From Chloroflexota bacterium (GTDB lineage: Bacteria; Chloroflexota; Anaerolineae; B4-G1; DUEL01): a stretch of DNA of 64,000 nt. This document shows, piece by piece, positions 11,162-57,950 of the stretch. The stretch spans positions 160,657-224,656 of the forward strand of contig JADBJJ010000012.1 in assembly GCA_014874475.1 (NCBI GenBank), written 5' to 3'. The translations under genes and the position numbers were made by a program. Every line of letters begins with the position of its first letter. Position 1 is the stretch's first letter. The notes under the pieces were generated by a model that did not search any database, was not told the DNA's origin, and saw nothing but the letters and a program-made list of their open reading frames with translations.

Positions 11162-14100
11162 CTATGGAGATTTCAACACCACCGGCAAATACGCCCGCCA
11201 CGGGCGGACTTCCACCCAGGCCGCCCGCTCCCAGCAGCCCTCCGCTCCGTCTTCCAGAAAGGCCACCGCGTAACCCGTTCCTACCGGTGGCGTAACCGTC
11301 TGGGTCAGCGTGACCGCGCCGCCTGCAGGAAGCGAGCCGGACCACAGCCAGGCGTCCGGCACTTCTGAAGTGCCCGGCACCTTCCAGAAGAGGGTGCCTG
11401 TGACCTCCGCTGTCGCCGTGAGCGCATCGGCGGGGCCGGCGTTCTCCAGCCGGAGGGTGCAGGTCACCGCCGCGCCCGGCTCCGCCGGGGAGGGCCCGCA
11501 GGCCAGCGCCGAAGGCCCGAGGTCCGGCGCGCCCACCCGCACCCAGGCCGTCCGGGAGAAGACCACCCCCTGATCCACCAGCGCGATGCGCGCAGTGTGC
11601 GGGACAACGGTCCCCAGCGGAAGTCCGTCGGCTAGCGTGGCCGGGAGGGTGAAGGTGAGGGCCGCGCCAGGGGCCAGGCTTCCCGTCCAGGTCAACGGTG
11701 AAGCCGTCCCCAGGTCCGCCGGGAAGGTCGTGGAGACGGCCGCCGTAACCGCCAGAAGGCCGTCGTTGACCAGCCGGAGGGTATAAGTGACGGTCGTCCC
11801 GGCAGCCGCCGCGCCCCGGTCGGCCCGGAAGGACGACTCGCCCAGCCAGGAGAGGAACCCCACCACCTGCCGCAGCACCTCAGGGCGGACCTCTTCCGGC
11901 AGAGTCTCCCAAGGGAAGGAGAAAAAGACTGCCGCCATCGGAGAGGTGGAGGTTTCCTCCGCCTGGGCAACCGAGAGAGACGCGGCTTGCCCCTCCCCCA
12001 TAAAGGTTGCCCCCACAGGCCCCCGGCGGGCCAGAGCGATGGCATGCCGGTTCCCGTCGCGGAGGAGGGTCGCCGTGCCAGGGGACGGGATCAGCCCGTC
12101 CGACCAGTTACGGTAGGGATAAGTGAGGAGCCAGGAGCAGGTCGTCGCCCTTACCCCCTCCCTCTCTCCCGCTGGCAGAAGAAGGGGAGAGGGAACGGGG
12201 ATAGAGGTGAGAGCCGCGAACCCGCCACAGGCCTCCTCCATCCCTGCCGGATTCTCCGGGACGACGGCCGCCAACGTTGGCGTCACGTCCTCCGTGTAGG
12301 TCAGGACACCCAGGTAAGGCTGCAGAGGCCCTCCGGCGTGGTAATAGAGAAAGTCCTGCGCACTCAGGAACAACCGCCCCCCGCCCTCCAGGTACTCCAC
12401 CAGCGCAGCCTCTTCTCCTTTCGTCACCGGCTCATACCAGTCGTACCCCGTCCACCAGATGACGGCGGGATACCACTGCAGGACCTCCACGGGCGGGCTA
12501 CCCAGCCCGCCGCTCCCAATCACCGCGTGGGTCTCCCAGAGGTCGTAAGGGATCCCGATGGCCTCCATCGCGGCCCGGTATTTTGGGGCCTGCTCGTACC
12601 AGCGATCGTCGTCCACGAGAAGGACCGGCGCAGGGGCTTTGCTGGTCAGGACGGCGGTGGCGGTCAGGGACGGCGAAAGAATGGAGCGGAAGGTCAGGGT
12701 GATGACGTCACGCGCGTCCCAGGCCGCCGTCGCCGGGACAGTGACGCTCACAGTCAGCGTGGCAGACGTGCAGGCGGGAAGAATGAGATATGGCGCGCTC
12801 AGTCGGGTGGGCCAGTCCGCTCCCTCTATGGACGGGACGACGACGTCCGGGATCGCGCCGCGCCCGGTGTTGCGGACCCGCAATTCGTGGGTGACGACGG
12901 TGCCCGGCGGGCCGACAGCGGTATGTTGGGGCAGGGTATGGGTCGCCCTTGCTACACGTAACTCCAGGCCTGTGTCGGGGTCGGGAGCGGTCAACCAGTC
13001 CAGCGCGCGGCGCATCACCTCCCGGCGGGTCTGGCGGTCGTTGATGGCCTCAAAGCCGAAGGAGAGATAGAGCGCCCGGTAGTCCAGACAGGTGCCGGTT
13101 GCCAGGGCGGCATAGCCGCTGGCGGGGCAACTTTGCCCGGCATCCTCCGGACGGCACTCCGATTCGCTGCGGGCCTGATCGCAGGCCGCATAGGCCAGGA
13201 CAGGGGCCGCTGCATCGGGGTCGGCAGGGGCGACGACGTCGGGGTAGTCCTGGTTATTCGCTCCGCCCGGCCCGGCGATGGTCATCGTCAGGCCTGCAAA
13301 GGGGCCCCCGGGGAGCCCTTCTACCGTCCAGAGGTTGCTGGAATCCTCCACCAGCCGCGCCTTCAGGTACTTCCAGTAGTACGGCATCCCGGCGTCCAGG
13401 AAGCCCACGTCCTGCCCGCTCAGGAAGAGGCGTCCCCCTGCCGAGAGGTAGGTCGTGATGGCGTTCTGCGCGCCGATGTAACCGGGGGCATCATACGGCG
13501 CGCTCCAGACCACCACGTCGTAGGGGGCCAGGAGGTCGGCCGTGGGAGTGTCGTCGGGTATCTGGTGGATAGTCCGCTCGTCGTAGGCCAGGGCCAGGTC
13601 GTCCAGCGCCTGGCGGTAGTAGGCGATCTGGCTCCCGTAGTACCAGGCCCCGGAGTCCACCAGCAGGATGGAGGGGGCCGGGGGGAGGGTCAGAGTGAGG
13701 GCCGTTGTCTCCCCGGCAGTCACCGGGGCCGTAGCGGTGACGACAGAGTACCCCACCGCGCGGGCACGGACGATGTAACTGCCCGCCGGGAGGGCAAAGG
13801 TCGCCAGGGAGGCCGTCGCCGTGAGGGGGGTATCCAGGACAGTGATGGTAGCGGTGACGGGCGCGCCGGCGGCCCCGTCGGCGAGAGCGACCCGGAGGGT
13901 GCCCGTAGGGAGGGCGGTCAGGGCGAAATCGGCGGTCACCACTGCGCCGGTGGTGATGACGATGCCATAACGGGTGACCGGCCCATAGCCGAAGGCGCGG
14001 GCGGTCAGGTCATAGGGGCCGGGGGCCAGGGAGAGGATGTAGCGGCCCATCCCGTCGGTCGTCGCCGAGCCCCCGCCGCCGTCGCCGTGGAAGGTGGCGG

Positions 14101-15637
14101 AGACGGTCGCGCCGGAGATGGGGGCCCCGTCTCCAAAACGGGCTACCGTCCCTTGGACGATTCCGGCGTTCATCAGGGAGGCAACGGCAGCAAAGGCGTC
14201 TATGCGCCCCCAGCCAGAATCGTTGTTGGGGACGGTCGTGCTCAGCGGGACGGCGGTGCTGGTGATGAGATAGGCGGTTCGGGTGATATCCAGGGTTGGG
14301 CTGACGGCGCGCAGGAGCGCCACCAGGCCGGCGACGTGGGGGGTGGCCATAGAAGTGCCGCTCATGAGGCCATAGATGCCGCCGGGGAGCGCGGAGCGGA
14401 CCCCGACGCCGGGCGCGACGACGTGAGGCCGAACCTCTCCCCAGGGAGAGGGCCCCCGGCTGGAAAAGTAGGCGACGCGGTCCTCCGAATCGGTGGCGCC
14501 CACGGCGAAGGCCTCGGGGAGGGAGGCCGGAGAGATGACGGTCCCCGGGCCGGGGCCGCTGTTGCCGTTGGCGAAGACGACGAAGATGCCCGCCGCGCGC
14601 AGCGCGCGCAGGTCCTGCTGGAACTCTACGGAGAGGCTGTTCTCGTCCCCCCAGGAGCAGTTGATGACATCGGGGGCCAGGGCGGGGTCGCCTGCGGGGG
14701 CCAGGAGCCACTGGAACCCGGCGTGGATCCAGGAGTCGTAGCCATAGCCGTACCGGTCCAGGACTTTGACGCCGATCCAGCGGGCGCCAGGGGCGACGCC
14801 GATGCCCTCTCCGCCGACGGCGGTGCCCAAGGTGTGGGTGCCGTGGCCGTGGTCGTCTATGGGGTAGAGGGAGCCGGTGACGGGGTCGTACCAGTTGCCC
14901 CGATGCTGGGCGGGTCCGTGGGGATTGTAGCCCCGGTAGTTGGTCCGGAGGGCGGGATGAAGCCAATCGGCGCCGGTGTCCATGCCCGCCACGACTGCGC
15001 CGGTGCCGGAGATGCTCAGGGTAGCCCAGACTTCAGGGGCGCGGATGCGGGAGAGGTTCCATTCGGCCATCCCCCCTTCCCCCTCTCTTATAAATGGGAG
15101 AAGGGATACCTGGGTGCGGGCGAGATACTGCCGGTATCGGTCCAGGCGGACCAGGGTGACCTCGGGGCGGGCGGCCAGGGCACGGAGGGTATCGGGGCGG
15201 GCGCGAACAGCGATGCCATTGAAAATCCAGAAGGGGGTGTACGATTCCACCCGTCCGGCAGCCCGCTCGGCTTCCAGGTAGGCCCGCAGGGGGGCCTGGG
15301 TGCGGTCTGCCAGGGATTGCAGGACCCTCACCCTCTCTCTCGCCACCTCTGGCCGCTCTCCTTCCCCCTCTCCCATAGGGGTGAGGGCCGCCTGCTCCCG
15401 CAGGACGACAATGGCGGGGAGGATGTCGTCCGGGCCGGCTTGGGCCAGGGCGCGGGCCAGAGCGGGGTCTAAAGGGGCCGGCGGGGCAGGCGAAAACCAG
15501 TCTGGAAGGAAGTCCGGGTTTGAAGAGAAATTCGCATTGGTCCCTCCGATCGTCCCGCCAGGCGCAGGAAGGAAGAGAATCCCTACCAGAAACGACCCGC
15601 TGAGGGCCAGTCGGAGGACAAGGCGGAGTACACCCAT
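11162..15637 (-). CDS. Secreted multidomain subtilisin-like serine protease (S8)
   Basis: 1491 aa, start ATG 15637. A signal peptide (LRLALSGSFLVGILFLPA) is followed by an I9-like propeptide region to about residue 200. The S8 catalytic domain of bacillopeptidase F type has Asp220 (VAGMDTGADW), His265 (DDHGHGTHTLG), the oxyanion Asn near 359 (FANGNSGPG) and Ser429 (SGTSMATPHVAG). Next come a carboxypeptidase-regulatory-like beta domain and PEGA-like stretch, two domains opening SILLVDSGAWYY and PVLLVDDDRWYE, and CARDB/COG1361-like domains. The chain ends WRAYLPVVLKSP. Such proteins digest extracellular protein or mature surface proteins. The gene starts 1 bp after the metalloprotease stop, so the two are coupled. 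Several translated palindromic repeats lie inside it. Confidence 0.93.
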   Translation of the reverse strand: MGVLRLVLRLALSGSFLVGILFLPAPGGTIGGTNANFSSNPDFLPDWFSPAPPAPLDPALARALAQAGPDDILPAIVVLREQAALTPMGEGEGERPEVARERVRVLQSLADRTQAPLRAYLEAERAAGRVESYTPFWIFNGIAVRARPDTLRALAARPEVTLVRLDRYRQYLARTQVSLLPFIREGEGGMAEWNLSRIRAPEVWATLSISGTGAVVAGMDTGADWLHPALRTNYRGYNPHGPAQHRGNWYDPVTGSLYPIDDHGHGTHTLGTAVGGEGIGVAPGARWIGVKVLDRYGYGYDSWIHAGFQWLLAPAGDPALAPDVINCSWGDENSLSVEFQQDLRALRAAGIFVVFANGNSGPGPGTVISPASLPEAFAVGATDSEDRVAYFSSRGPSPWGEVRPHVVAPGVGVRSALPGGIYGLMSGTSMATPHVAGLVALLRAVSPTLDITRTAYLITSTAVPLSTTVPNNDSGWGRIDAFAAVASLMNAGIVQGTVARFGDGAPISGATVSATFHGDGGGGSATTDGMGRYILSLAPGPYDLTARAFGYGPVTRYGIVITTGAVVTADFALTALPTGTLRVALADGAAGAPVTATITVLDTPLTATASLATFALPAGSYIVRARAVGYSVVTATAPVTAGETTALTLTLPPAPSILLVDSGAWYYGSQIAYYRQALDDLALAYDERTIHQIPDDTPTADLLAPYDVVVWSAPYDAPGYIGAQNAITTYLSAGGRLFLSGQDVGFLDAGMPYYWKYLKARLVEDSSNLWTVEGLPGGPFAGLTMTIAGPGGANNQDYPDVVAPADPDAAAPVLAYAACDQARSESECRPEDAGQSCPASGYAALATGTCLDYRALYLSFGFEAINDRQTRREVMRRALDWLTAPDPDTGLELRVARATHTLPQHTAVGPPGTVVTHELRVRNTGRGAIPDVVVPSIEGADWPTRLSAPYLILPACTSATLTVSVTVPATAAWDARDVITLTFRSILSPSLTATAVLTSKAPAPVLLVDDDRWYEQAPKYRAAMEAIGIPYDLWETHAVIGSGGLGSPPVEVLQWYPAVIWWTGYDWYEPVTKGEEAALVEYLEGGGRLFLSAQDFLYYHAGGPLQPYLGVLTYTEDVTPTLAAVVPENPAGMEEACGGFAALTSIPVPSPLLLPAGEREGVRATTCSWLLTYPYRNWSDGLIPSPGTATLLRDGNRHAIALARRGPVGATFMGEGQAASLSVAQAEETSTSPMAAVFFSFPWETLPEEVRPEVLRQVVGFLSWLGESSFRADRGAAAAGTTVTYTLRLVNDGLLAVTAAVSTTFPADLGTASPLTWTGSLAPGAALTFTLPATLADGLPLGTVVPHTARIALVDQGVVFSRTAWVRVGAPDLGPSALACGPSPAEPGAAVTCTLRLENAGPADALTATAEVTGTLFWKVPGTSEVPDAWLWSGSLPAGGAVTLTQTVTPPVGTGYAVAFLEDGAEGCWERAAWVEVRPWRAYLPVVLKSP
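11356..11380. repeat. Palindromic GGCACTTC repeat inside the subtilase gene
   Basis: GGCACTTC-T-GAAGTGCC palindrome followed by a second GGCAC. It is translated in the subtilase C-terminus (VPGTSEVP). Similar cores GTGCC(A/G)GGCACTTCTG occur at 45954-45969 and 52587-52602. Confidence 0.6.
12150..12200. repeat. CCCTCTCCC/GGGAGAGGG-type palindromic repeat in the subtilase gene
   Basis: Arms built on CCCTCCCTCTCTCCC and GGGGAGAGGG around a short spacer. On the coding strand it is translated as LLLPAGEREGV. One of at least six related elements in the window. Confidence 0.6.
15071..15106. repeat. CCCTCTC-type palindromic repeat in the subtilase gene
   Basis: CCCCCTTCCCCCTCTC then TATAAAT then GGGAGAAGGGA; translated as LLPFIREGEGG between the propeptide and catalytic domain. 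Confidence 0.55.
15325..15387. repeat. CCCTCACC/GGTGAGGG palindromic repeat in the subtilase gene
   Basis: Outer arms CCCTCACC (15325-15332) and GGTGAGGG (15380-15387) enclose CCCTCTCTCTC and CCCCCTCTCCC. Translated as LTPMGEGEGERPEVARERV within the propeptide. Confidence 0.65.
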
Positions 15638-20665: not shown

Positions 20666-20722
20666 CAATCCTCCTTAAAAATAAATCTACGAAGTTTGCC
20701 CAGCGGTATCACAACCGACTCG

Positions 20723-20778
20723 CCCGTTTCCTCTCCCGTTCGCCTGCGGCGGCGGAGGAAGGGAGAGGGAAAAACGGG
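20723..20778. repeat. CCTCTCCC/GGGAGAGG palindromic repeat
   Basis: Arms CCCGTTTCCTCTCCC and GGGAGAGGGAAAAACGGG around a CGCCTGCGGCGGCGG core, between the selenoprotein candidate and the upstream unknown gene. Followed at 20785-20818 by a GCGGACGGCTTCGC-type element with flanking CAAACCCC. Confidence 0.6.
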
Positions 20779-25077: not shown

Positions 25078-25590
25078 AGCGCTGCTCTGCGGTTTGAGCC
25101 GAGCGAACCGTTTTCGCTTGGAAAGACCATCCTACCCCTGGGGGTCTTATGCCTGCTGCTCTCTCATCTCCTCAGGAACACAGGGCGAAGCCGCCTCGGT
25201 GGACGCCCGTTGTCTCTCCCTCGCAGCAAGGAGGTTGGTGACGGATGACCTCAACAATGACTGAGCGAGAGGTAGCCGCCGCTCTGGCCGCCAAACTGGA
25301 CGAATATATCCGACGGTACCATACCAATGGTGACGTTGCAAAAGCCCCGCGTTCTTTCGGGTGTGTTCCAATCCTCCTGTCCTCTCCCCGCGGCCGCCTC
25401 GCGGCGCGGGGAGGGAGATAGTGGGGGATGAAACTGCCGCTCACAAATCCTCTTTTCTGAGGAGGGGGTCACGACATCGCCCAGCAGAGATCGGCCAAGA
25501 AGTTGCATATGACGCAACTGCTCGGCGCAGCAGAACGGGTATACTTACAATCTGTAGGGTCCAATTGCTGGTTCCGGGAGAGACTGAGAG
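25078..25590. other. 512-bp region with one small ORF and a palindromic repeat
   Basis: Between nadK and the Fe-S protein gene. It holds a 58-codon ORF with a strong ribosome-binding site (25245-25421) and a CCTCTCCCCGCGG/CGCGGGGAGG palindrome at 25374-25418 that forms the ORF's 3' third. The rest shows no recognised feature. Confidence 0.5.
25245..25421 (+). CDS. Small ORF (58 aa), possibly a truncated gene
   Basis: ATG at 25245 preceded by AAGGAGG at 10 nt; too short for the track. The first part (TEREVAAALAAKLDEYIRRYH) looks like a natural amphipathic helix. From about residue 38 it reads through a dispersed GC-rich palindrome (LLSSPRGRLAARGGR) and stops. It could be a small protein or the 5' remnant of a gene interrupted by the repeat. 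No family recognised. Confidence 0.3.
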   Translation: MTSTMTEREVAAALAAKLDEYIRRYHTNGDVAKAPRSFGCVPILLSSPRGRLAARGGR

Positions 25591-57865: not shown

Positions 57866-57950
57866 CCTTACCTCACCCCCCAGCCCCTTTCCTCTCCTGC
57901 GCGCCCTTCGTCAGCGGGAGAGGGGATGGGGAGCAGGGCTGGGGAACCAG
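57866..57950. repeat. Palindromic CCCCTTTCCTCTCC/GGGAGAGGGGATGGGG repeat
   Basis: CCTCACCCCCCAGCCCC at one end and GGGCTGGGG at the other, with CCTCTCC and GGAGAGG inside, between murJ and the methyltransferase gene. The most complete intergenic copy of the CCCTCTCCC family. Confidence 0.65.

Follow-up and report, generated by a model that had tools for sequence, protein, structure and literature searches.

In Rickettsia, palindromic elements are translated in frame as parts of unrelated proteins, and they are not known to have an associated nuclease. Vsr-like homing endonucleases occur in inteins and split genes, with a Vsr-fold nuclease in frame in other genes. Holder et al. (2015, PMC4666352) reported the TMECO triplex motif from 262 proteobacterial genomes and, in E. 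coli, from intergenic positions only; TM/PIT elements also come from Hoyne et al. (2000), as cited in PMC4666352. These TM/PIT repeats were shown to form triplexes and to mark unstable loci, while PMC4666352 did not settle where they come from or how they spread.

The window analysed here is a stretch of 64,000 nucleotides (G000:C1:160657-224656) from a Chloroflexota assembly of 3.0 Mb in 32 contigs, and it contains a subtilase gene with translated repeats. The family to which I assign them shares with TM/PIT the hairpin CCCTCNCCC/GGGNGAGGG together with a third word GGGNGAGGG, and neither has a known transposase. However, the Chloroflexota copies are often in genes whereas TMECO is exclusively intergenic in E. 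coli, the window's genus has longer, variable spacing in place of the second loop of exactly 3 nt seen in G048 and others, and Holder et al. (2015) reported no link to DUF559. Like REP/RAYT systems, the family shows short palindromes, dispersed solo copies and a nuclease gene flanked by palindromes, but the enzyme is a PD-(D/E)XK Vsr-like nuclease rather than an HUH tyrosine transposase. The sequence-only reading had pointed to a REP-associated transposase; PF01797 (Y1_Tnp) has no match in the genome, while 5 of 14 control genomes were positive. The subtilase inserts resemble Rickettsia palindromic elements in being palindromes inserted in frame and absent from homologues, although sequence and host are unrelated. 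The resemblance to Vsr-like homing endonucleases lies in a Vsr-fold nuclease sitting in frame in other genes, with one DUF559 insert in an intein/Hint-like reading frame (L276, judged by eye); the difference is that DUF559 is here bounded by hairpin repeats.

The best explanation as a whole, to which I give a probability of roughly 0.6, is that the inserts are eroded, non-autonomous TM/PIT copies lying in frame, and that the family was probably moved by a DUF559 nuclease.

Translated repeats in a subtilase gene

The host gene (11162..15637, minus strand) encodes a subtilase of 1491 aa with Peptidase_S8 at residues 211-477 and CarboxypepD_reg at 494-574, and a homologue search found its nearest relatives in Thermoflexales/Anaerolineae MAGs. 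Its reading frame holds three copies of a C-rich/G-rich palindromic element, all read from the minus strand. Site A (15325..15387) has the terminal arms CCCTCACCC..GGGTGAGGG and is translated as ALTPMGEGEGERPEVARERVRV, which includes GEGEGER; in the AlphaFold model of residues 56-497, where the propeptide is confident, it is the propeptide loop joining strand 1 to helix 1. Site B (15071..15105), a short eroded copy translated as LLPFIREGEGGM and including REGEGG, lies between propeptide and catalytic domain, and the same model gives it no structural placement, its catalytic part being poorly predicted (mean pLDDT 60). Site C (12148..12213) is translated as ALTSIPVPSPLLLPAGEREGVRA, including GEREG. 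It had been placed between C-terminal domains, but in the model of residues 1000-1262 it is a low-confidence loop (pLDDT 51-67) inside one C-terminal domain that is otherwise confident.

Related copies lie between genes, with no strand assigned, at 20720..20777 (fold z -2.5), at 25374..25418 as a hairpin (z -4.1) and at 57866..57945 with the outer arm CCTCACCCC (z -1.4). The window contains the word CCCTCTCCC 8 times where 2.15 would be expected, a count reached in 0 of 100 shuffles. A palindrome at 14433..14452 of the minus strand (ACCTCTCCCCAGGGAGAGGG) was considered as a fourth element and rejected: it encodes the conserved SPWGE motif, and its CCCTCTCCC at 14444-14452 encodes SRGPSPWGE, which is conserved in nearly all homologues, so that it is a chance palindrome. 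A further genus-specific insert of ~26 residues (11939..12022, minus strand; residues about 1206-1233; GGGGGCAACC..GGGGCAAGCC) apparently derives from another type of C/G-rich repeat, which in L046 is GTAGGGGCAACC-like; the sequence-only reading did not list it.

The window's own subtilase copies are weak palindromes. As single-stranded DNA they fold like shuffles (z -0.4 at A, -0.2 at B and -1.2 at C), whereas the orthologous copies of the sister species G004 fold strongly in the same test (z -7.1, -9.8 and -4.0), and the window's subtilase copies are thus eroded. What identifies them is their composition, position and orthology rather than a clean hairpin, with terminal arms still discernible at A and C. 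Of the sequence-only reading, the three in-frame copies and the related intergenic ones (about 20723, 25374 and 57866) stand, with the correction that the subtilase copies are only weakly palindromic.

Same-genus orthologues were compared from G004 (L017/L046), G003 (L022/L047) and G001 (L018/L048). At site A the left end of the element is common to the window's species, G004 and G003, and the interior differs; in G003 (L022/L047) the right half and ~40 codons are gone, with a frameshift, near query residues 87-131, which may be a real deletion or an assembly error at the hairpin. At site B three species have three different elements. Site C is occupied in the window's species and in G004 and is empty in G001 (L018). 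The insert peptides at all three sites are absent from subtilase homologues outside the genus. At site A, homologues without the repeat have a loop of about equal length, so replacement fits better there than simple insertion. The element has very probably been inserted in frame in this gene, and the idea that the repeat spreads and that loops and linkers tolerate it holds up, both on the absence of the residues outside the genus and on the empty site C within it. Occupied sites probably turned over fast, so that sister species retain an element at each shared place but differ in its interior.

Family and distribution of the element

Scans of the window's genome covered 855 kb (sampled stretches of ~790 kb plus the window), with a reversed control. 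A loose word scan gave 40 matches against 35 in the control and did not separate elements, and relaxed or one-mismatch words in the sampled stretches likewise gave counts about equal to the control. A composition scan gave 9 against 1. The genome-wide count that the sequence-only reading had looked to thus fails with loose words and succeeds by composition, so the element is real, but in this genome its copies are few and eroded. These data bear on the view that the subtilase stretches are low-complexity Gly/Glu/Arg/Pro linkers of a GC-rich gene with a chance likeness to the repeat. Own copies that fold no better than shuffles, and the 40 against 35 of the loose scan, are what it would expect, but the G004 orthologue folds strongly at all three sites and the terminal arms survive at A and C; the sister-species copies largely refute this view, and I give it almost no credence.

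Across seven same-genus genomes the outer-arm pattern CCCTCACCC N25-55 GGGTGAGGG has 12 forward matches and none in the control, and this CCCTCACCC..GGGTGAGGG pattern supplies the terminal inverted repeats of a MITE. The words of this pattern agree with those that Holder et al. (2015, PMC4666352) gave for the TMECO triplex motif. A slightly relaxed three-part TM pattern occurs in 28 of 60 relatives and in 167 of 350 Chloroflexota genomes, with up to 861 copies per genome; the reversed control has 0 matches in every genome listed. In the window's genome the hairpin CCCTCNCCC-loop-GGGNGAGGG with third word GGGNGAGGG is found at G000:C11:149080 and C30:50416, the subtilase copies being too eroded. 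At genus level, and judged from sequence, the element in all likelihood belongs to the intrastrand-triplex (TM/PIT) family, the triplex itself being predicted. Because they are eroded, the window's own copies are tied to that family by orthology and composition. A MAFFT alignment of the elements was poor and gave no covariance model. Several MAG contigs (G001, G005 and G004 loci) start or stop in or beside TM elements, so these assemblies probably understate the number of copies.

Copies within genes are not peculiar to the subtilase. Among the 108 core hairpins from the fetched loci, 28 fall deep within open frames of 200 aa or more, though codon composition makes some of these frames doubtful. 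Pfam gives clear cases: six hairpins in a DNA methyltransferase (L206), three in an NB-ARC protein (L197), and others in a second methyltransferase (L198) and in purD (L200). The claim that the repeat is confined to exported proteins accordingly falls, as in-frame copies are present in purD, DNA methyltransferases, a STAND/NB-ARC protein and an intein-like protein. One purD loop (L327, L328, L329) is occupied by a TM element in one species, whereas the sister species G020 and G041 have unrelated tandem repeats there, which indicates that permissive loops collect different repeats. At places homologous to the L206 hairpin sites, L198 (G024:C28) has a different repeat, translated as LTQRHKDTEDNLGVSVSLCEKD, whose DNA resembles a second palindromic family. 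A search for empty sites in the family of the L206 host gene found no full homologue in another genome.

It could be argued that selection keeps the hairpins as working terminators or as structural DNA elements, and that their presence in genes is incidental. Similar hairpins at gene 3' ends are presumed terminators in Enterobacter sp. 638 (PMC2869309). The hairpins here, however, occur mid-frame and more than once in a gene (six times in L206, three times in L197), and subtilase homologues lack them, which makes this explanation very improbable.

DUF559 genes beside the hairpins

I scored 49 strong DUF559 loci in Chloroflexota and 16 from Alpha-, Beta- and Gammaproteobacteria, Deinococcota and Cyanobacteria; these are best hits, mostly from MAGs and taken regardless of relatedness, and some plasmid-collection records among them are clearly chromosomes. 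In Chloroflexota, TM words lie within 200 bp of DUF559 in 29 of 45 left and 27 of 46 right flanks, against 0-3 of about 43 in bins farther away, and in the other phyla in 11 of 16 left and 9 of 16 right flanks. The reversed-order control matched 9 and 8 near flanks in Chloroflexota and 1 and 1 in the other phyla; the Chloroflexota control matches are as arrays of palindromes would produce. No TM words were found beside weak DUF559-like hits (11 loci), and random windows of the window's own genome contain them in 27 of 4000 cases. A clear C-rich hairpin is present on each side of DUF559 in only 28 of 65 loci. The left and right hairpins at a given locus are more alike (similarity 0.63) than shuffled pairs (0.39; maximum of 2000 shuffles 0.485), and the flanks tend to bear the same hairpin variant. 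Among the 350 Chloroflexota genomes, counted regardless of relatedness, TM occurs in 89 of 114 with a strong DUF559 and in 78 of 236 without (odds ratio 7.2, p 1.7e-15), and the exact pattern is absent from 25 of the 114. It is extremely likely that DUF559 genes are associated with TM hairpins, in Chloroflexota and in other phyla.

The association extends into reading frames. In L206 and L177 the DUF559 domain lies between two translated hairpins, and in L206 domain and hairpins are in frame within a methyltransferase whose homologue L198 has no DUF559 block there. DUF559 with translated hairpins alongside was seen in frame inside larger reading frames at L206:1928-5551, L177:1-2373, L261, L274 and L276; the frames that bear it are methyltransferase, STAND-like, restriction-modification-like and intein/Hint-like, the last two judged by eye. 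A DUF559 copy with an internal TAG stop, likely dead, is found in the window's genus (L262, G004:C10).

Close to E. coli ycjD (1351407-1351760) lies TMECO no. 9 (1351204-1351239), and the 3' end of the gene carries a TM-like hairpin (about 1351396-1351418); in that species ycjD takes the place of eefRABCD between fabI and sapF. In Deinococcus the position of DUF559 within the hpa gene cluster differs between two species. YcjD is described as a putative Vsr-related PD-(D/E)XK protein and Caulobacter VsrA as having DUF559. As far as its accessible text goes, the open-licence literature on DUF559 and YcjD contains no link to repeats, and earlier reports may be missed.

How the hairpins might spread

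The window's own genome has no DUF559 match, though TM copies are present, and DUF559 is absent also from some copy-rich relatives, namely G048 (40 TM copies), G025 (31) and G019 (23). Such genomes invite a passive account, in which repeats arise and turn over through replication errors at hairpins or triplexes, and pre-existing TM repeats recombine, homologously or by template switching, which disperses DUF559 genes and solo hairpins while DUF559 itself does not act. That many TM copies occur in genomes without DUF559, that element interiors change at fixed sites, and that TM motifs are tied to local genome instability with no mobility genes nearby (Holder et al., 2015, PMC4666352) would all agree with it. 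Against it, DUF559 is bounded within 200 bp by TM hairpins of the same lineage variant on both sides, a specificity gauged only against distal bins, weak DUF559-like hits and random windows. I consider the passive account unlikely.

In the preferred reading, a DUF559 nuclease of the YcjD type (Vsr-like, PD-(D/E)XK) would cut the hairpins and drive their spread. The mobile unit would be REPtron-like, hairpin-DUF559-hairpin, and the repeats seen in the window would be its solo hairpins. The subtilase inserts would be old, non-autonomous palindromes of the form CCCTCACCC.. CCCTCTCCC-loop-GGGAGAGGG ..GGGTGAGGG that came to lie in frame where surface loops or linkers tolerate Gly/Pro/Arg/Glu-rich peptides. 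The window's lineage may once have had a DUF559 nuclease and later lost it; because its genome now has none, the subtilase copies would be relics or would have been moved in trans in an ancestor. For DUF559 as the active mobiliser of TM hairpins I see about an even chance. It is similarly a toss-up whether DUF559 nucleases with adjacent TM/PIT hairpins form an unrecognised class of bacterial mobile element, of which TM/PIT repeats, including those of the subtilase, are the non-autonomous copies.

If this reading is true, the DUF559-TM unit works like RAYT-REP with a different nuclease. As a mobile unit, hairpin-DUF559-hairpin seems to be undescribed so far. The association across phyla offers a direct candidate for the spread of TM/PIT repeats, one that is testable in E. 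coli, where ycjD and the hairpins are both present. DUF559, a domain family of unknown function, would thereby gain a possible role, and hairpin repeats would be seen to add peptides to enzymes, including housekeeping ones.
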